From contig JABDKS010000429.1 of NCBI GenBank assembly GCA_013002105.1, positions 1-7,250 on the forward strand: DNA of 7,250 nt, read 5' to 3'. The notes under the pieces were generated by a model. The model was given only the letters and a program-made list of their open reading frames with translations, was not told the DNA's origin and ran no database searches. Each line of letters begins with the position of its first letter. Within the stretch, counting starts at the first letter, position 1. The DNA is from Pirellulaceae bacterium (lineage in GTDB: Bacteria > Planctomycetota > Planctomycetia > Pirellulales > Pirellulaceae). Of this stretch, positions 1 to 7,250 are shown one piece after another. Position numbers and translations under genes: made by a program.

Positions 1-218
1 TCGTGGGACATCAGGCTGGCAAATTGCGTATGGTTTTGGTTAGTCCAGGACGGCGATAAACTGTCTACACCGTCCTACACTTGTTCTTGTATATCGGCCT
101 TCGCCGGTCCTTCCCACCCCGTGCCCCCGTTCTTTGACGTGTTCTCCAACCGAAACCTTATCCGTGGCGGCTTGATGAGGACGGGTGCGGATATTTTTTC
201 TCTGATCGGCTGACTGAC
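1..218. other. Upstream region of truB, no identifiable gene
   Basis: No recognisable gene. On the plus strand, frame 3 is open from the window edge to a TAA at 57-59 and could be the last 18 codons of an upstream gene (ending VSPGRR), but I do not recognise the family. Frame 1 is open from base 1 to a TGA at 211-213 and reads as non-protein-like sequence rich in Trp, Cys and Phe. A 7-base perfect inverted repeat, AGGACGG (47-53) and CCGTCCT (70-76), spans the frame 3 stop and could be a weak terminator, though no T-run follows. No convincing promoter or ribosome binding site for truB is visible. Confidence 0.4.
47..76 (+). terminator. Possible weak hairpin at the end of an upstream gene
   Basis: AGGACGG at 47-53 pairs perfectly with CCGTCCT at 70-76 around a 16-base loop. 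It overlaps the TAA at 57-59 that would end a possible partial upstream reading frame. There is no U-tract after the stem, so intrinsic termination is uncertain and the repeat could be chance. Confidence 0.2.
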
Positions 219-1103
219 TTGTTTGGTTTTCTAAATTGTGACAAGCCGCCCGGAATCACTTCACGGGATGTCGTGAACGTGGTTCAACGTCGCTTGCGAC
301 CTGCGAAGATCAAAGTGGGGCACTGCGGTACATTGGATCCGCTGGCCGAAGGCGTTTTGGTGATCGGCGTCGGCGCGGCCGTGCGATTGGTCCCGTATGT
401 CCAACAACAACCCAAGCAATACCGAGGCAAATTCCGACTGGGAGCCTCCAGTGAAACCGGCGATTTAGAAAAAGGGTTTACCGAACACCCCGATTTGCCA
501 ACTCCATCTCTGGATCAACTGCAGTCGGCGCGGCAATCGCTGATCGGATTGATTCAGCAAGTCCCGCCCGCCTATTCCGCCATCTGGGTCGACGGTCAAC
601 GAGCCTACGAACGTGTCCGTCGCGGCGAAGATGTCGAGATGCCGTCACGGCAGGTCATGATTCATGATTTGCAAATCGTCTCGATGAATTATCCCGAATT
701 CGAATTGGACATTGTTTGCGGATCGGGTACCTACATTCGCACACTCGGAATCGACCTGGCACGGGCCGTGGGATCGACCGCCGTCATGACCCATTTGAAA
801 CGTACTGGGGTGGGTGACTTCTCGATCGAGAGTGCTGTCACGATCGACCAATTACGTGACGCTCCATTAGAGCCGTTGCTGTTTCCCCCAATTCGTGCTG
901 TCAGTCATTTGCCGCGATTGGTTGTCGACGAAGACGGCTCGCAGCGGTTGGCCAATGGACTTTGTGTCGAAGGAACACCCAGCGGCGATGTCAATGAACA
1001 GTCGGATGTTGCGGCGGTCAACGAAGTCGGGGAGTTGCGAGCGATACTGCGGCGCAAGTCACGCGGGTGGTGCCCCTACCGAGTCTTTCCGCTGCCAACG
1101 TGA
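219..1103 (+). CDS. truB: tRNA pseudouridine(55) synthase TruB
   Basis: Converts uridine 55 in the T-loop of tRNAs to pseudouridine, in the cytoplasm. The 294-residue protein opens directly with the family start (MFGFLNCDKPPG) and carries the catalytic motif GHCGTLDPLAEGVL at residues 34-47, with D40 as the expected nucleophile. It also has the TGD motif at 80-82, PPAYSAIWVDGQRAYE at 116-131 (family motif with Y119), and the CGSGTYIRTLGIDLA block at 167-181. The C-terminal part, from about residue 230, would be the TruB C-terminal/PUA-like region; it is divergent. The start is TTG at 219: the frame is closed by TGA at 135-137 and no ATG or GTG lies between, so TTG is the only start that keeps the conserved N-terminus (CTG at 210 is less likely). 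No Shine-Dalgarno is visible. It converges on pyrD, with palindromic repeats in the gap. Family length (about 290-315) fits. Confidence 0.96.
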   Translation: MFGFLNCDKPPGITSRDVVNVVQRRLRPAKIKVGHCGTLDPLAEGVLVIGVGAAVRLVPYVQQQPKQYRGKFRLGASSETGDLEKGFTEHPDLPTPSLDQLQSARQSLIGLIQQVPPAYSAIWVDGQRAYERVRRGEDVEMPSRQVMIHDLQIVSMNYPEFELDIVCGSGTYIRTLGIDLARAVGSTAVMTHLKRTGVGDFSIESAVTIDQLRDAPLEPLLFPPIRAVSHLPRLVVDEDGSQRLANGLCVEGTPSGDVNEQSDVAAVNEVGELRAILRRKSRGWCPYRVFPLPT

Positions 1104-1181
1104 CGTTGATCCCCCGAGAGTCAATGAATCCATCACGCGTAGCGAGCGAGCCGCCAAGAACATCCCCATCACCTGTAACCC

Positions 1182-1203
1182 GTAGGCCAGGACCAGTCCT
1201 GGC
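1182..1203 (+). repeat. GTAG-headed palindrome (REP-like), copy 1
   Basis: GTAG at 1182-1185 is followed at once by a perfect 8-base inverted repeat, GCCAGGAC (1186-1193) and GTCCTGGC (1196-1203), with only two bases (CA) between. A GTAG tetranucleotide at the 5' foot of a stem-loop is the known hallmark of bacterial REP elements served by RAYT transposases. Assignment to that class is inference from layout alone. Confidence 0.6.
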
Positions 1204-1256
1204 ACAACTGGCAACCCCGTGCGACCCGGACCTGGCCCGGCACCACTAGCAACCCC

Positions 1257-1278
1257 GTAGGCCAGGACCTGTCCTGGC
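1257..1278 (+). repeat. GTAG-headed palindrome (REP-like), copy 2
   Basis: Same layout as the copy 75 bases upstream: GTAG at 1257-1260, then GCCAGGAC (1261-1268), the two-base spacer CT, and GTCCTGGC (1271-1278). The stem is identical to copy 1 and the orientation is the same. The middle unit (1213-1250) has GTGC in place of GTAG and an imperfect stem, so it looks decayed. Confidence 0.6.
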
Positions 1279-1328
1279 ACGACTGGCATCCCTGTCCGCC
1301 AAGACCCTCCATCACAAACCACAATGCG

Positions 1329-2255
1329 TCAGGGTCGCTGCAGCGTGCCGACCACTTCGGCCACCGATGTCGCATCGAGTTCCGCCAGGGCGTCAGGGAG
1401 TTGGTCGATCAGGCGTGTCGATATGGTGGGGTCGTAATAGTTCGCCGTTCCAATTTGTACCGCGGATGCTCCGGCGACGATGAATTGCATCACGTCATCG
1501 ATGTTGGCGATTCCACCGATACCAATAATCGGAATGTCGACCGCCGATGCGACTTGATGCACACACCTGAGCGCGATCGGCTTGATCGCCGGGCCGCTCA
1601 GACCGCCCATCCCATTGCCCAACATCGGGCGTCGTTTTCGCCAATCGATCGCCATTGCCAGCACCGTGTTGATCAAACAAACCCCATCGGCGCCACCGTC
1701 CGCCGCGCCCTGCGCGATCTGTGCAATGCTGGTCACGTTGGGGGTTAGCTTCGCCAGGATCGGGACGGGGCATTTTTCGCGGGCTGCTGCCACGACGTCA
1801 CGACAGGATGTCGCGTTGGTTCCGAAGTCGATCCCGCCGCTGACGTTTGGGCATGATAGATTCAGCTCGATCGCCGATACACCCGGTTCGTTGCCGACGC
1901 GGTGGGCGAGTTCGACAAAGTCATCTTGGGTGCGACCAGCCACACTGACGACGACCGACGTTCCAATTTCTCGCAAGTACGGCAGATGCTGCTGCAAAAA
2001 TGCGTCGACGCCATCGTTGTCCAGCCCGATCGCGTTGAGCAATCCCGCGGAGGTTTCGACGGTTCTCCACGGAGCGTTGCCGATGCGTGGTTCGGCGGTG
2101 ATCGTTTTGGGCAGCACACCACCGATTCGCGAAACATTGACGATCCCTTGCATTTCGCGGGCGTAACCAAAGGTGCCCGATGCCACCATGATCGGATTCT
2201 TGAGCTTCAATCGACCCAGCGAGACGGACAAGTCGATCTTGGTGGCGGCATTCAT
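1329..2255 (-). CDS. pyrD: Dihydroorotate dehydrogenase, class 1B catalytic subunit
   Basis: Oxidises dihydroorotate to orotate, the fourth step of pyrimidine synthesis, using FMN. The 308-residue TIM barrel shows the N-terminal NPIMVASGTFGY (20-31), the catalytic loop ELNLSCPNV (130-138) with Cys135 as the base, K169 in AKLTPNV, the GGLSGPAIKP signature (217-226), and the phosphate-binding GIGGI (245-249) and GASAVQIGTA (262-271). The active-site cysteine marks class 1 (class 2 enzymes have serine). The AMAID...GGLSGPAIKP block points to class 1B, the NAD-linked form that normally works with the iron-sulfur/FAD subunit PyrK, which is not in this window. Start is ATG at 2255, with TAA in frame upstream. 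No clear Shine-Dalgarno. It lies 168 bases downstream of coaB on the same strand; a 15-base-period array lies just upstream. Length is normal. Confidence 0.96.
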   Translation of the reverse strand: MNAATKIDLSVSLGRLKLKNPIMVASGTFGYAREMQGIVNVSRIGGVLPKTITAEPRIGNAPWRTVETSAGLLNAIGLDNDGVDAFLQQHLPYLREIGTSVVVSVAGRTQDDFVELAHRVGNEPGVSAIELNLSCPNVSGGIDFGTNATSCRDVVAAAREKCPVPILAKLTPNVTSIAQIAQGAADGGADGVCLINTVLAMAIDWRKRRPMLGNGMGGLSGPAIKPIALRCVHQVASAVDIPIIGIGGIANIDDVMQFIVAGASAVQIGTANYYDPTISTRLIDQLPDALAELDATSVAEVVGTLQRP

Positions 2256-2309
2256 TGCGAGATAGTGGTTGGAGAATTGGTTCGAATGATCGTTGGATTC
2301 TGCAAATTA

Positions 2310-2389
2310 CGGTTCGTCGACTTTCGGTTCGTCAGAGTGCGAGTCATCAACGTGCGAATCAACAATGTGCGAATCATCAAAGTGTCTGG
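2310..2389 (-). repeat. Tandem array, 15-base period, upstream of pyrD
   Basis: Between coaB and pyrD, plus-strand units of exactly 15 bases run 2330-2344, 2345-2359, 2360-2374 and 2375-2389 (for example CATCAACGTGCGAAT and CAACAATGTGCGAAT). The period continues to the left, where CGGTTCGTC occurs at 2310-2318 and again at 2325-2333. In pyrD sense the consensus is about ATTCGCACGTTGATG. The array ends 55 bases before the pyrD start, so it lies in the promoter or leader region. It is not part of either flanking gene: in the pyrD frame a TAA closes the region. Confidence 0.7.
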
Positions 2390-2414
2390 GCCCTGCAGTT
2401 TGCCCGCTAGGGCC
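2389..2414 (-). terminator. Possible hairpin downstream of coaB
   Basis: GGCCCT (2389-2394) pairs with AGGGCC (2409-2414) around a 14-base loop, starting about 10 bases after the coaB stop on the minus strand. A nested GCCC/GGGC pair is an alternative fold. No T-run follows, so it may be an attenuating structure or simply chance; coaB and pyrD could still be co-transcribed. Confidence 0.2.
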
Positions 2415-2423
2415 ATCGATCAT

Positions 2424-3062
2424 TCAATCCTGTTTTAAAACCAGGCGATCATGAATGTGGAACATCAACTCGTCAGCGACGTGCATTTTGTCGCCGTTAA
2501 TCGAAGCGATCACATCGCCGATCGGGTCAAGCAGTTCCACGTCGTTGTCAGAGGCATCGATCGCTTGAGGTCCGTTGCTGACCATCAAGTCGCAGCACTT
2601 TTTTTGCAGTTTGACTGTCGCGCGGAACCGTCGGTCCTCCGTCTCCAGCGCGAATCCAACCACCCACTGATCCGAGCGTTTGTTCTGACCGAGCATCGCG
2701 ACGACGTCCGGCGTTTCGATCAATTCCAGCACAAGCGGTTGTCCCGTCTTGGCGATCTTGTCGGTCTTCACATACCGCGGCATGTAGTCGCACGGAGCCG
2801 CGGCACCAATGGCGCCATCGCATTGATCAAAGATCTTCTTGGCCGACGCCAACATCTCGTCGGTCGTCAACACCGACACGACGTCCGCGCCGGCAGGGTA
2901 ATCGACGGCCACCGGTCCACTAATGACAACAACCTCGTGACCCAGACGGAGCGCCGCGTCGGCTAATGCTGCTCCCATTCGACCGCTCGACGCGTTGGTC
3001 AAGTAACGCACGGGATCGAGATACTGACGCGTCGGACCGGATGTAATCAGAATGCGCGACAC
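2424..3062 (-). CDS. coaB: Stand-alone phosphopantothenate-cysteine ligase (CoaB)
   Basis: Joins cysteine to 4'-phosphopantothenate using a nucleotide (CTP in most bacteria), in coenzyme A synthesis. The 212-residue protein matches only the CoaB half of the common CoaBC fusion. It shows ILITSGPTRQYLDPVR (4-19), TNASSGRMG (22-30; N23 aligns with E. coli CoaBC N210), ISGP (47-50), AAAPCDYMP (87-95; D92 aligns with D279), K102 (aligns with K289), and VVGFALET (134-141). The usual AAVADYRP has become AAAPCDYMP. No CoaC decarboxylase domain is fused or adjacent, so CoaC must be encoded elsewhere. Start is GTG at 3062, which keeps the conserved first strand. It begins 10 bases after the stop of the TerB-like gene, suggesting one transcript, and pyrD follows 168 bases downstream. 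Confidence 0.93.
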   Translation of the reverse strand: MSRILITSGPTRQYLDPVRYLTNASSGRMGAALADAALRLGHEVVVISGPVAVDYPAGADVVSVLTTDEMLASAKKIFDQCDGAIGAAAPCDYMPRYVKTDKIAKTGQPLVLELIETPDVVAMLGQNKRSDQWVVGFALETEDRRFRATVKLQKKCCDLMVSNGPQAIDASDNDVELLDPIGDVIASINGDKMHVADELMFHIHDRLVLKQD

Positions 3063-3072
3063 AGCAACCAGA

Positions 3073-3435
3073 CTATTTTTTCAAAGTCTCTGCGATCAGA
3101 CGATCTAAGTGTTTTTTGTCCAAATCCATTTTCACTGCCGCGAGCGCAAAGAGACGCTTCTCACCTTCTTCCAGCCGACCATCGGCGGCCATCATTCGAA
3201 TCAAGTCACACATCAACTCTTCGCGTGCCGCTTGACTGTTGGGCAATTCCAATGCCGCATCGTCGCTCAAACCGAACTCGATCGCTTTTTGTAAATCAAT
3301 CGCGGTCAAACCGAGCTCCGCACACCGGTCGGCAACCATGTTGACTTCGCGCTCGCCAATCGACCCGTCGGCCATCGCCATCACGACCAAGTTACGAAGG
3401 TGCCGTTGCTGTTTTGTGTTTTTGTCGTCTGTCAT
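3073..3435 (-). CDS. TerB-like helical protein of unknown role
   Basis: A 120-residue, soluble, probably all-helical protein without signal peptide or membrane segment. It resembles the TerB/tellurite-resistance-like domain: two related halves each carry an acidic loop, ADGSIGEREV near residues 22-31 and ADGRLEEGEK near residues 87-96. In TerB-family proteins such Asp/Glu clusters can bind metal. The function is not known, and no other tellurite-resistance gene is nearby, so a resistance role is not implied. The ATG at 3435 (MTDDKNTKQQ) is chosen because the domain begins soon after it. The frame stays open to an ATG at 3579, but that 48-residue extension translates a 14-base tandem array and looks spurious. 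Its TAG stop is 10 bases before coaB, so the two are probably co-transcribed. Confidence 0.75.
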   Translation of the reverse strand: MTDDKNTKQQRHLRNLVVMAMADGSIGEREVNMVADRCAELGLTAIDLQKAIEFGLSDDAALELPNSQAAREELMCDLIRMMAADGRLEEGEKRLFALAAVKMDLDKKHLDRLIAETLKK

Positions 3436-3496
3436 AGTGCCGCTGAGTTTACCCTGGCCCCCCCGATCACGGAAGACGACGTGGCGAAATGGCCAG

Positions 3497-3595
3497 ATGC
3501 CCAACTCATTCGGCGCAGTTCCATTGGCCCAGCTCAAATGTGCCAGTTCGTTTGGCCCAAGACGTGCGGCCCAGAACATTCGGCCCAGGGCTCAA
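3497..3595. repeat. Tandem array, 14-base period, upstream of the TerB-like gene
   Basis: About seven degenerate units in a row between the SH3 gene and the TerB-like gene: 3497-3510, 3511-3525 (15 bases), 3526-3539, 3540-3553, 3554-3567, 3568-3581 and 3582-3595. Clear examples are GGCCCAAGACGTGC, GGCCCAGAACATTC and GGCCCAGGGCTCAA. The GGCCCAG half is better kept than the other half. Because 14 is not a multiple of three, the array is unlikely to be coding. It ends 61 bases before the chosen ATG of the TerB-like gene. Confidence 0.7.
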
Positions 3596-3603
3596 CTAGC
3601 GAC

Positions 3604-3617
3604 CCGCGGCATCGCGG
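3604..3617 (-). terminator. Small hairpin downstream of the SH3 gene
   Basis: CCGCG (3604-3608), loop GCAT, CGCGG (3613-3617) form a perfect five-pair stem about 70 bases past the stop of the SH3-domain gene on the minus strand. There is no T-run, so a role in termination is only a possibility. The rest of 3596-3688 holds nothing I can identify. Confidence 0.25.
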
Positions 3618-3688
3618 ATTGGGCGATGCATCGTTCTTAGACAACGCACGGCATGCTGGGAGACCACTATCAACAACCGGGGGAACGA

Positions 3689-5701
3689 CTATCGACGCGT
3701 TCGCAACGCTTCGCTGGCCAAAATGTGCGGTGTGTTCAGCCCCTGCACAAATCCCTGCTGGCCCGATACATCGATGTGGCTATTGATGTGATGGCGCAGA
3801 TTCACGCCGGGTGCCGGCGTGATGTAAGCGATCGTGTTGCCGACGTTGTCCGTCAATGCAAACGGCGGACTGTTCTCGCGGGCTGAATAGACCTGCACCA
3901 GGTAGCCCGAAGCCGTTGGTCCCTGCGGAATCGTGGGCATCTGTGTCGCCACGCCTTGAGGCATGGGGGCTGCCGCACCCTGCGGTGACAGTTGATCGAC
4001 CGCCATCTGGGCGACGCCATTGGGAGCGGTCGCTGATTGAATCGGCATAATCGCCGTGGCAGGCATGACCGACAGACCGGCTCCCGCGACGCGTTGATGC
4101 GGCTGCGTTTGTCCATCACGACGCGACGCGACGCGTTGATATTGGCCGACGCGTTCGCTTAGCAGTCGAGCGCGGGCGGCGGTCAAATCATCCGTCGATG
4201 TTTGCACCATCCGGTTTGCAGCGTCGGCAATCGGTTGTGTCTCGATCGCCGTCGCAGTGTTTGCCATTAATCGCGACAGCATTAGATGCAGTTGTTCGAC
4301 ATCCGCTGTACTCGCTTCCGCTTCGATCGCCGCAATCGCTTCTGCCGTGGGCATTGTGGCCGCCGCGACCCGTGCCGTTTGTGGTGCGAACGTGATTGGC
4401 TCTTGGCCGCCCACCTGCTGAATCGCGCCGTTAGGAAATCGGTTGGTGCCAGGCGGTGCCAACGACGGTGGCAAGTTCTGTCGTGCCGCACCGATGATCC
4501 AATTTTGTTCATTCGCCGGTTCGGCCGCTCGCGGTGCTGCCGCGGATCCAGAAGCACCAATTTCGATCAATCGTGGACGCGATACAAAATCGGCTGCCGC
4601 GAGTCGTGGTTCGCTGCGCGTCGGTGCCGTCGCATCGGCGACCGATGCCGTCGCGTGATGCGCAGGGCCAGTGTGTGTTTGGGAGATTGAATCTTCGACC
4701 GCTTGCCGCACCGGATTGTTTTCCCAACTGGGACTCAATCCACTGCCCACCGCACCGGCTTGGTTGGTCGGTGAGGACTGTTGCGCCGTTACGGCAGCCT
4801 GAGGTGCAGCGCTCAAGACCGGTTGGTCACCGTTGTCCAGCGGCTGCAGCCGACCGGGATTGCGACGTGATGATTCGATGCCAACGGTACCACCGGCGGT
4901 ACGGATTGGCGCTGGAGTGGGCGTGTTGACCGATGCCGTGTGATCACCCACATGGTGTAATACCGATGGGCCCAGATCTTCGGTTTGTAGGGCGTCAACT
5001 GCGGATTGGGTATCGGCTGTACGTGCTTGCGAAGTGTTGTGCTGCGCTATGCGTTGCTGCTGTGACGAGTCGACCGATCCGGTTGGGGCGCGTTGCCCAC
5101 CTTGCCGTTGAACGGTCGCGATCAGCTCTTCGGCCGTTCGGACAATTTGGTCGCGATGGACCCAGCGAAATTCGCCCGACGGCGGCACGATGCGATACCA
5201 CAATTGCGGACCATCGGGACCTTCGCGCTCGCTGCGGCCAATGATCGTGACAGGTTCACCCTGGGCCAGTTGCACTTGCCAGCGATAGCGTTTGGCGCGA
5301 CCCAGATGAGTTCCAATCCAAGCAACCGTGCGGTCTTCGATCACGGTACCACTTTCGCCACCCTGGTCAGCTTGAACAGTCGACGCCGGTATCCAGCAAA
5401 AGCTTTCACTCGGCGGTCGTACACCCAACCAACCATCCGCCGTTTCGACGTAGACATCCAATTCCTGACCATGACGCAGCGGATCGGTCCGATAGTATTC
5501 TTCGCTCGGACCGCACCGCGTGTAGGCTTCTTCGTATGCGACCAGAACCGTATACGGATCACTGGACAAACCCTGCTGCGCATCAGTGTTCTCCTGCGCG
5601 TTGGTATCGTGCGGCACCATGCAAACGGCAAAGACCGCCAATGCAGCAGTCGTCAGCAGGGATCGGACGGAGATCAAAACAGGACGTTCGGCCGTTTTCA
5701 T
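3689..5701 (-). CDS. Secreted SH3-domain protein with planctomycete-type architecture
   Basis: A 670-residue protein probably exported to the periplasm or cell surface; the molecular role is unknown. Residues 1-35 look like a signal peptide (basic start, hydrophobic core about 14-29, likely cut after TNA at 33-35). Residues 50-110 form a bacterial SH3-like domain (YTRCGPSEEYYRT, then PPSESFCWIPA). Residues 120-187 form a second (WYRIVPPSGEFRWVHRDQI). A long Ala/Gln/Pro/Thr-rich, probably disordered stretch runs about 200-460, then a helical segment at 466-530 and a second low-complexity linker. A C-terminal domain (600-670) contains PPFALTDNVGNTIAYITPAPGVNLRHH and a GQQGFV turn, a pattern I associate with conserved planctomycete SH3 proteins. 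The ATG at 5701 is preferred over one at 5836 because it starts directly before the signal peptide; a weak AGAG lies 12 bases upstream. It is divergent from the 6271 gene and 253 bases from the TerB-like gene. Confidence 0.85.
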   Translation of the reverse strand: MKTAERPVLISVRSLLTTAALAVFAVCMVPHDTNAQENTDAQQGLSSDPYTVLVAYEEAYTRCGPSEEYYRTDPLRHGQELDVYVETADGWLGVRPPSESFCWIPASTVQADQGGESGTVIEDRTVAWIGTHLGRAKRYRWQVQLAQGEPVTIIGRSEREGPDGPQLWYRIVPPSGEFRWVHRDQIVRTAEELIATVQRQGGQRAPTGSVDSSQQQRIAQHNTSQARTADTQSAVDALQTEDLGPSVLHHVGDHTASVNTPTPAPIRTAGGTVGIESSRRNPGRLQPLDNGDQPVLSAAPQAAVTAQQSSPTNQAGAVGSGLSPSWENNPVRQAVEDSISQTHTGPAHHATASVADATAPTRSEPRLAAADFVSRPRLIEIGASGSAAAPRAAEPANEQNWIIGAARQNLPPSLAPPGTNRFPNGAIQQVGGQEPITFAPQTARVAAATMPTAEAIAAIEAEASTADVEQLHLMLSRLMANTATAIETQPIADAANRMVQTSTDDLTAARARLLSERVGQYQRVASRRDGQTQPHQRVAGAGLSVMPATAIMPIQSATAPNGVAQMAVDQLSPQGAAAPMPQGVATQMPTIPQGPTASGYLVQVYSARENSPPFALTDNVGNTIAYITPAPGVNLRHHINSHIDVSGQQGFVQGLNTPHILASEALRTRR

Positions 5702-5897
5702 CGCAAAAATTTCTCTGACAGCAAAGGGAACGCTGGGCCGATCACGCGACAATGTGCGAACGGCTTTTGGGCAGCGCAAGCTTTCCATTTGGTCGATACC
5801 GAACCAGCGGCCACCAGCACAAGATGAATCGTGCAAGACGACCGACGCACAGATCGCACCGGTTCGTCATTTTCAGAATCCAACCAGGGCATGAACT

Positions 5898-5935
5898 AAC
5901 GGGAAACCGGCATGGTTGCGTCTTCACGTCCCGTT
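5898..5935. promoter_or_regulatory. Inverted repeat in the divergent region
   Basis: AACGGGA (5898-5904) is the exact reverse complement of TCCCGTT (5929-5935), with a 24-base interval that contains a nested AACC/GGTT pair (AACCGGCATGGTT). It sits about 200 bases from the SH3 gene start and 335 from the other gene. It could be a regulator site or a small RNA structure; seven base pairs is weak evidence and chance is possible. Confidence 0.2.
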
Positions 5936-6033
5936 CGGGTAGCGTCGCAGCGGACTACCAGATAACACTCGCTCTGCAAGAACCGTCTCTCGGGGCCGCA
6001 GAGGGCACGTCATCCTGCTGGCCCACTGCCAGA

Positions 6034-6078
6034 ATTTTGCACGGTCGGATCTTGCACGATCGGATTTTGCAAGTGCTT
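6034..6078 (+). repeat. Tandem array, 15-base period, three units
   Basis: Three adjoining 15-base units: ATTTTGCACGGTCGG (6034-6048), ATCTTGCACGATCGG (6049-6063) and ATTTTGCAAGTGCTT (6064-6078). The first two differ at only two positions; the third keeps the first eight bases. The array lies about 190 bases upstream of the amidohydrolase-family gene. The ATT..GCACG core resembles the 15-base repeat upstream of pyrD read in pyrD sense (ATTCGCACGTTGATG). Confidence 0.7.
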
Positions 6079-6270
6079 ATCAAGTTCGTCGCTGAATCAC
6101 CCATGGCTTTGCTGGCAAAGGGGTTCCAGATCAGCGTTTACGCTCGACCAAGTCGACTCGTAGACTCCCAATACGGGTCCAACGTTTAGCTCGCGCTGAT
6201 GTTGTCTCCCCGTTTCGCAAGATGATTCACCGTCGCTGTTCATTTGTCCCATTTTTATTGACGCTCCATC

Positions 6271-7077
6271 ATGTGCCTTTTGATCAGCTGCGAATCGGGA
6301 GGTCAACGTGTTCCCGAGCAACTGATAGAGAATCACGCAGTCCACCTATCCGCGTCGCCCGATCGGCGGGAGCAGCGGCAAGCGACACCGCGTAACAAGC
6401 ACGCCCACCGACGATCGCCACCGAACTCCGATTCGTTTGCAAGTCTTCCCGAATCACTTTCCCATGATGCAGCGGCGCGATACGCGGCACGGCGGATCGC
6501 CGAGCGTTTGCAAGCCCCGCTGATCCAGCACGACTATTCACTCGACTTGATCGACGTCACTCGATCGTTGCGTCATCGTCGACTTTATTCGTCGCTCACA
6601 CGGGGCTGCGATGAGCACCAGAAAGCGTGGCTGATCGATCATGTTTATCAGCCCTATCGTGATCGCGTTCGCAGTGCGATCGGTCAGCAGTTGTGCCGGC
6701 AAGTGTATGTGGTGCATTTATCCATCCGCAGTTTTGACCAGTTCAGTCCCAAGCAAAAACGGCGTCGCGCGGACGTCGGGTTACTGTACGATCCAGCGGT
6801 GGTGGACGAAGTCGACTTGTGTGCCGATTGGCTCGAAGAAATGTATTTCGGTGTCGAAATGCTCAAGGTTCGTCGCAACTATCCGCGACGCGGCACGGTC
6901 GACAGTCTGACGCGGGCAATGCGAACCGAGTTTTCTGGACAGAACTATCTGGGTGTCGAAGTCCTTTTGAATCGAGCCTGGGCGGCGCGCGACGTAGCGC
7001 TGCGAGATGAAGCCATTGATGCGATGTGTACGAGTCTACAAGCGGTTCTGCAGCCGATCCAAAATGCAGCCGCGTAA
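6271..7077 (+). CDS. N-formylglutamate amidohydrolase-family protein, possibly inactive
   Basis: A 268-residue cytoplasmic protein of the N-formylglutamate amidohydrolase family (Pfam PF05013), whose studied members hydrolyse N-formylglutamate in histidine breakdown with a bound metal. Family blocks are clear: LLISCESGGQRVP (3-15), LSH (63-65), DVTRSLRHRRLYS (95-107), HLSIRSF (149-155), RRADVGLLYDPA (165-176), RRNYPRRGTVDSLT (201-214) and NYLGVEVLLNRAW (225-237). Two usual histidines are replaced: CEHGG is CESGG (S9), and HLSVHSF is HLSIRSF (R153). Both are expected to sit at the metal site, so the protein may be inactive or have changed chemistry. Residues 20-62 form a hydrophilic Arg/Ser-rich insertion longer than usual. 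ATG at 6271 is the start: TGA at 6259-6261 closes the frame upstream. No Shine-Dalgarno. No other histidine-breakdown gene is nearby. Confidence 0.85.
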   Translation: MCLLISCESGGQRVPEQLIENHAVHLSASPDRREQRQATPRNKHAHRRSPPNSDSFASLPESLSHDAAARYAARRIAERLQAPLIQHDYSLDLIDVTRSLRHRRLYSSLTRGCDEHQKAWLIDHVYQPYRDRVRSAIGQQLCRQVYVVHLSIRSFDQFSPKQKRRRADVGLLYDPAVVDEVDLCADWLEEMYFGVEMLKVRRNYPRRGTVDSLTRAMRTEFSGQNYLGVEVLLNRAWAARDVALRDEAIDAMCTSLQAVLQPIQNAAA

Positions 7078-7118
7078 ACCCCAAGTTCACCGCGGCGGCG
7101 CAACCCCATCGGTCCAAA

Positions 7119-7140
7119 GTAGGGCCGGCTCCCACCGGCC
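7119..7140 (+). repeat. GTAG-headed palindrome (REP-like), copy 3
   Basis: GTAG at 7119-7122 directly precedes the inverted repeat GGCCGG (7123-7128) and CCGGCC (7135-7140) with a six-base loop. The stem sequence differs from the copies near 1182 and 1257, but the GTAG-plus-palindrome layout is the same. It lies 42 bases past the stop of the amidohydrolase-family gene and could also terminate its transcript, although no T-run follows. Confidence 0.5.
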
Positions 7141-7141
7141 G

Positions 7142-7228
7142 ATTACATCCCGCCAATTACATCCCGCCATATGCGCAATCTCATCCAGTTGATTTCATCC
7201 ACTCGATAGCGTGCCGTTGATCGCGTGC
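7142..7228. repeat. Tandem array, 14-base period, downstream of the amidohydrolase-family gene
   Basis: Two identical units of ATTACATCCCGCCA (7142-7155 and 7156-7169) are followed by diverged units that keep the 14-base step. Shifted by three bases, units such as AGTTGATTTCATCC (7187-7200), ACTCGATAGCGTGC (7201-7214) and CGTTGATCGCGTGC (7215-7228) share six-base ends in pairs. The array lies between two palindromes (7119-7140 and 7233-7250). No gene is visible here. Confidence 0.6.
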
Positions 7229-7232
7229 AGTT

Positions 7233-7250
7233 GGCCGGTAGGGACCGGCC
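7233..7250. repeat. Palindrome at the window edge, possibly another REP-like copy
   Basis: GGCCGGT (7233-7239), loop AGGG, ACCGGCC (7244-7250) is a perfect seven-pair inverted repeat that reaches the last base. Its reverse complement, GGCCGGTCCCTACCGGCC, matches 16 of 18 bases of the 7123-7140 palindrome, so the two may be an inverted pair around the array. It also holds GTAG at 7238-7241 followed by GGACCGGCC, which could instead be the first half of a new GTAG-headed stem cut by the window end. Confidence 0.4.

Follow-up and report, generated by a model that had tools for sequence, protein, structure and literature searches.

Results

Four short-period arrays in a Pirellulaceae contig

The 7,250-nucleotide stretch analysed here (GenBank assembly GCA_013002105.1, contig JABDKS010000429.1, positions 1 to 7,250; hereafter the window) comes from a Pirellulaceae bacterium of the Planctomycetota. 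It carries truB, pyrD, a CoaB-like gene, a TerB-like gene, a long gene without a Pfam match and an N-formylglutamate amidohydrolase-like gene. Four gaps contain tandem arrays of period 14 or 15 bp. In the sampled relatives, tandem duplications of about 15 bases are frequent both within and between genes, a pattern that looks more like a mutational tendency than a signal for protein binding.

Array 1: 2298..2384, no strand; period 15, about 5 copies, in the gap between the CoaB-like gene and pyrD.
Array 2: 3499..3588, no strand; period 14, about 6 degenerate copies, in the gap between the TerB-like gene and the long gene without a Pfam match.
Array 3: 6037..6071, no strand; period 15, 2.3 copies, in the divergent gap before the N-formylglutamate amidohydrolase-like gene.
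Array 4: 7123..7233, no strand; period 14, degenerate, downstream of the N-formylglutamate amidohydrolase-like gene, the weakest of the four.

Each array was compared with 200 dinucleotide-preserving shuffles of its own gap. The periodicity of array 1 (fold z 9.9 at period 15, lag-15 match at 2298-2384), array 2 (z 11.9 at period 14) and array 3 (z 6.9 at period 15) was reached by none of the shuffles. The four arrays reported in the first-pass annotation, which was made from the letters of the window, are thus mostly borne out; the fourth (z 4.9 at period 14) is weaker, being matched by 5 of 200 shuffles. The best lag-14 segment of array 4, 7123-7233, is made up of two short blocks (7138-7169 and 7205-7233) with degenerate in-phase copies between them. 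Arrays 1, 2 and 4 each align without gaps at one lag, with copies too degenerate to be delimited singly. Cyanobacterial short tandemly repeated heptamers are also short-period intergenic arrays, but with a period of 7. Lags of 5, 6, 7, 8 and 10 score at most 5 in the window arrays (3, 2, 1 and 2 at lag 7 in arrays 1-4), compared with 16-32 at the true period.

Unit sequences were compared pairwise by their best rotated match, and five of the six pairs did not exceed shuffled units. The proposal that the arrays share a period and not a sequence is therefore upheld except for the pair of arrays 2 and 4, which is borderline (9 of 14 positions matched, p 0.049 uncorrected). No Pfam-matched gene contains any of the arrays, in line with the claim that none lies in a gene; short unsupported open reading frames do overlap them, however, and an alternative upstream start of the TerB-like frame at 3579 would take in most of array 2, although the start at 3435 is sufficient for the Pfam match. 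Copies become less alike the farther apart they lie in array 1 (identity 0.75, 0.69, 0.60, 0.53) and in array 4 (0.62 between neighbours, then 0.45, 0.40, 0.18 and 0.20), as serial local duplication predicts. No structured RNA was found in the window by Rfam at gathering thresholds.

Excess and preferred length of tandem repeats in relatives

The CoaB-like protein, used as a query, matched 192 relatives, and the best 80 of these were taken for comparison (the 80 loci). The best match was K23_9 (CP036526.1), with 80% identity in this protein; array 1 gave a best E of 0.18 against its genome. The sampled DNA comprised 600 kb of K23_9, 200 kb of CA13, 520 kb of TBK1r (final count), 600 kb of SV_7m_r and the 80 loci. 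A phylum draw of 20 stretches from 19 genomes, which may include further Pirellulaceae, was added. The ten control groups were pSymB, two Sinorhizobium medicae replicons, pAt, Escherichia coli K-12 (150 kb) and replicon stretches of S. americanum, Cupriavidus, Caballeronia, Neorhizobium, Paracoccus and Indioceanicola, all from Pseudomonadota and, except for E. coli, plasmids or chromids. An in-house Markov model supplied the gene calls; it leaves some short genes in the intergenic class, so multiples of three may be inflated in intergenic DNA.

Perfect tandem repeats of 12-18 bp numbered 128 in 535 kb of intergenic Pirellulaceae DNA and 2 in 184 kb of the controls, an excess of about 22-fold. 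In coding DNA there were 55 in 2575 kb, compared with none in 780 kb. Two extra controls of 50 kb each, from Rhodococcus pRHL1 and from Deinococcus MP1, had no perfect 12-18-bp repeats; pRHL1 had three weaker coding arrays, of 12, 12 and 21 bp. An equal excess in control bacteria, named in the first-pass annotation as an outcome that would count against a distinct repeat class, was not seen in these controls. Counted as ungapped arrays with a score of at least 20 at lags 11-23, intergenic densities per 100 kb were 7.9 in K23_9, 39.2 in CA13, 19.1 in TBK1r, 28.6 in SV_7m_r and 24.5 in the 80 loci; the phylum draw gave 8.1, and the controls a single array in 184 kb.

The pooled intergenic repeats comprise 31 of 11-13 bp, 80 of 14-16 bp and 28 of 17-19 bp, with 34 at exactly 15 bp. 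Since chance matches raise the counts at short lengths, a threshold effect does not account for a peak that lies above them. Sample by sample the three classes were 3/8/0 in CA13, 4/7/6 in TBK1r, 8/28/7 in SV_7m_r and 13/34/14 in the 80 loci, a mode that is clear in three sets and weak in TBK1r. Coding repeats had lengths of 12 bp (12), 15 bp (32), 18 bp (9) and 21 bp (7), with only four out of frame among lengths of 10-20 bp. The same 15-bp mode is thus present in coding DNA after the frame filter, and the intergenic excess that had been proposed as a test, although found in the relatives with its mode at 14-16 bp, is not confined to intergenic DNA. The excess is strong, and the length mode is strong when pooled and uneven by genome. 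It agrees with the proposal that a shared period with unshared sequence reflects a common generating process; the fixed step that was also suggested is replaced by a broad peak.

Turnover between close relatives

TBK1r and genome G042 were aligned over 267 kb at 89% identity, and 237 of 655 insertions or deletions (indels) of 4-80 bp were kept by a flank-quality filter that dropped 418. Among the 148 passing indels of 9-80 bp, 17 were of tandem type, and 13 of these measured 12-16 bp, compared with 43 of 131 non-tandem indels (Fisher p 0.0009). Nearer pairs, which share genomes and are not independent, gave 3 of 4, 4 of 4 and 4 of 5 tandem-type indels in this range. The control pairs had one tandem-type indel of 9-80 bp in 81 kb (Sinorhizobium) and none in 36 kb (E. 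coli).

Arrays at orthologous sites were compared at lags 11-23 with a score of at least 14. The 27 intergenic arrays of TBK1r comprised 13 without a locatable site in G042, nine absent there, two changed in copy number, two eroded and one the same; the 21 of G042, sought in TBK1r, comprised 10, seven, two, two and none, respectively. For coding arrays the same classes held five, 15, three, two and two of the 27 in TBK1r, and three, 15, three, three and six of the 30 in G042. Elsewhere, a stretch of one locus that holds a 19-bp unit twice (L028, 1631-1671) is 19 bp shorter in three others (L013, L024, L025).

The gap that holds array 1 was surveyed in the 80 loci and the window, where 33 of 81 sequences had adjacent coaB and pyrD genes and a usable gap. 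Only three of the 33 contain an array, with units that are all different and of 15 bp in the window, 23 bp in L012 and 18 bp in L036. In K23_9 the gap is 33 bp long and array 1 is absent. The retention at an orthologous place that marks iterons or regulatory arrays was therefore not seen for array 1, the one window array examined for it.

Two other kinds of repeat were noted in these genomes. In a stretch of G042 (9.38-9.72 Mb; L240-L246 and L262-L271) neighbouring arrays of periods 14 and 16, one of them 239 bp long, are similar by eye, with CCCCATC followed by a T-rich part, and form a local satellite family. A dispersed repeat of about 135 bp lies in TBK1r (L126, about 8756-8891), with at least 20 further places in that genome at 88-95% identity and additional copies in G042, G044 and G045 among the matches listed.

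Unit composition, palindromes and GTAG-started repeats

No general unit motif was found in the arrays of the relatives beyond local families. The word GGGGAC occurs in 10 of 78 SV_7m_r arrays, whereas across 200 random draws no 6-mer was present in more than 8, and GTCCCC is present at 0.99 per kb of intergenic DNA in SV_7m_r versus 0.27-0.28 in three relatives. The sharing stems at least partly from a palindrome cluster. In SV_7m_r, positions 18700-20000 of L170 hold a dense cluster of GGGGACAGTCCCC palindromes, with local 13-17-bp duplications of one arm and its flank. Hairpin and purine-skew signals in the units were not significant in K23_9, CA13 or SV_7m_r; units were slightly GC-richer in K23_9 (p 0.004) and SV_7m_r (p 0.046), and not in CA13.

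Within the window, folding of arrays 1, 2 and 4 does not surpass that of their shuffles, and array 3 folds only mildly better (z -1.57, equalled by 19 of 200 shuffles). GTAG-started repeats have been reported in the Planctomycetes-Verrucomicrobia-Chlamydiae superphylum by the paper from which the GTAG family name is taken (PMC3733652). Two GTAG-started palindromic stretches (7119-7140 and 7238-7250, the second cut by the window end) bracket array 4. GTAGG is found at 1182, 1257, 4987, 5522, 7119 and 7238, and no GTAG occurs inside the 14-15-bp units. A GTAG-started palindromic array with a 37-bp period and 3.4 copies is also present at 1179-1306.

Discussion

The arrays are interpreted, with a probability of about 0.68, as local minisatellites produced by a mutational process (sequence-independent tandem duplication of about 15 bp, growth by slippage and decay) and not by selection for binding sites. 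Stretches of arbitrary sequence would first be copied in direct tandem, most often at a length of about 15 bp (roughly 12-18), a step supported by the length spectra of the relatives. Some arrays would subsequently grow or shrink, most simply by slipped-strand mispairing; arrays reach 17 copies, and copy number differs between relatives. The copies would then drift apart, leaving neighbours most alike, as in arrays 1 and 4, while within genes almost only in-frame lengths would survive. The lack of a general motif and of a significant hairpin or purine skew, the agreement of lengths between genes and gaps, and the quick turnover fit such a mutational generator.

The 15-bp step itself may originate in polymerase slippage over a microhomology of a few bases or, alternatively, in repair with fill-in of two nearby nicks on opposite strands. 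In 75 two-copy perfect intergenic repeats of 12-17 bp, overlaps of 0, 1, 2, 3 and 4 bp were counted 13, 13, 9, 7 and 3 times and longer ones 30 times, where random duplication predicts 55, 28, 11, 4 and 1%. This excess suggests microhomology, although decayed third copies inflate the overlap, so the measure does not tell slippage and nick repair apart. In the close pairs, five perfect duplications had overlaps of 0, 1, 1, 5 and 7 bp. More tentatively, and with considerable doubt, the Pirellulaceae may possess a length-programmed duplication activity, in which a repair or replication enzyme of fixed reach copies about 15 bp in tandem genome-wide.

Three candidate generators were rejected. A PolA without its 5′ nuclease domain was set aside, as the domain is present in nine of nine relatives. 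Ku-dependent end joining had no Ku match in SV_7m_r, the one array-rich relative searched (in the phylum draw, 5 of 30 genomes have Ku). The nearest published behaviour found is that of an E. coli topA R168C strain, for which one assay gave insertions of a single kind, de novo tandem duplications of 2-19 bp (PMC6954433). Its duplications are likewise head to tail and independent of existing repeats; it is, however, a laboratory mutant, and the parts of that paper drawn on here contain no 15-bp mode. All 11 topoisomerase IA sequences examined, which come from nine relatives, keep R168, and since the residue is intact in all nine a lesion of this type is not the cause here. R35 is kept in 10 of the 11, the exception being a divergent paralogue. 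This paralogue is a second topoisomerase IA-like sequence that genome G005 (L293) has beside TopA; it shows 0.25 identity to the N-terminal part of E. coli TopA and carries V at the R35 column.

Several observations weigh against the preferred reading. The length spectra are those of relatives rather than of the genome to which the window belongs, and no clear mode is seen in the closest relative found, K23_9 (3/3/1 at 11-13, 14-16 and 17-19 bp). SV_7m_r and the 80 loci contribute 62 of the 80 repeats of 14-16 bp, and the phylum draw is low, with two perfect 12-18-bp repeats in 49 kb. Eleven of the 13 tandem-type indels of 12-16 bp lie within called genes, where the reading frame by itself favours 12 and 15, and the rate of 17 in 267 kb is not significantly different from that of the Sinorhizobium pair (1 in 81 kb, p 0.055). 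Coding arrays are partly kept (2 of 22 locatable in TBK1r, 6 of 27 in G042), and in array 2 identity does not fall over distance (0.64, 0.63, 0.56, 0.71, 0.80).

The state of K23_9 and the close-pair rates also favour an ordinary slippage background, in which large genomes with long, weakly constrained gaps keep more short duplications without any length preference. Short-unit satellites occur in many prokaryotes, some perhaps through local errors of DNA duplication (PMC6749651). This explanation is nevertheless improbable, given the 22-fold density over controls per intergenic base, the raised density per coding base and a pooled spectrum that is not monotonic and peaks at 15.

It is very unlikely that the arrays are remnants of dispersed palindromes of the repetitive extragenic palindromic (REP) kind, spread by REP-associated tyrosine transposases (RAYTs). 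In favour of this origin, GTAG-started palindromes flank array 4, matches to Y1-type transposases are present in eight of nine relatives, and in SV_7m_r duplications lie within the palindrome clusters of L170. GTAG-tagged REPs (PMC3733652) are stem-loop units bearing the tag; such palindromes are present in the window, but its 14-15-bp units are not of this type, the folding of the window arrays and the hairpin content of units in relatives show no significant excess, and outside SV_7m_r no word is shared beyond chance. The slightest chance is given to tiled sites for a DNA-binding, regulatory or replication protein maintained by selection, of the kind first proposed to tile DNA at 14-15 bases: the four arrays do lie in gaps, one of them divergent, and have similar periods, but most locatable arrays are absent at orthologous sites, the few arrays in coaB-pyrD gaps differ in unit and period, there is no general motif, and the same lengths are in excess in genes.

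Minisatellites, including short-unit satellites in Rhodopirellula baltica, are already known (PMC6749651), which qualifies the first-pass annotation's remark that it knew of no named class with this definition. The survey defines a prokaryotic satellite by at least four repeats of 10-200 nt, at least 60% of them of identical length, and lists 29 in R. baltica, 27.6% with units over 30 nt. Its tandem units of 10-30 nt, often mutually unrelated, resemble those described here. Arrays 1 and 2 span about five and six units, array 3 has 2.3 and array 4 is degenerate; the sections of the survey consulted here contain no 15-bp mode, joint coding and intergenic spectrum or turnover between close relatives. 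A 15-bp duplication mode in planctomycetes was absent from the titles and abstracts found, in a search that left out most subscription journals and supplements. Neither the length mode nor its occurrence in coding DNA nor the turnover was found in the literature searched.

The first formation of tandem repeats from non-repeated DNA has been called unknown (PMC6954433), and a family with a preferred duplication length in both coding and intergenic DNA would be a natural system for finding the generator. Such a family would also warn against interpreting such arrays as regulatory sites. If the length-programmed activity were real, proteins of Pirellulaceae would steadily gain insertions of five residues and new intergenic arrays would keep arising, which would give the lineage a mutational signature.

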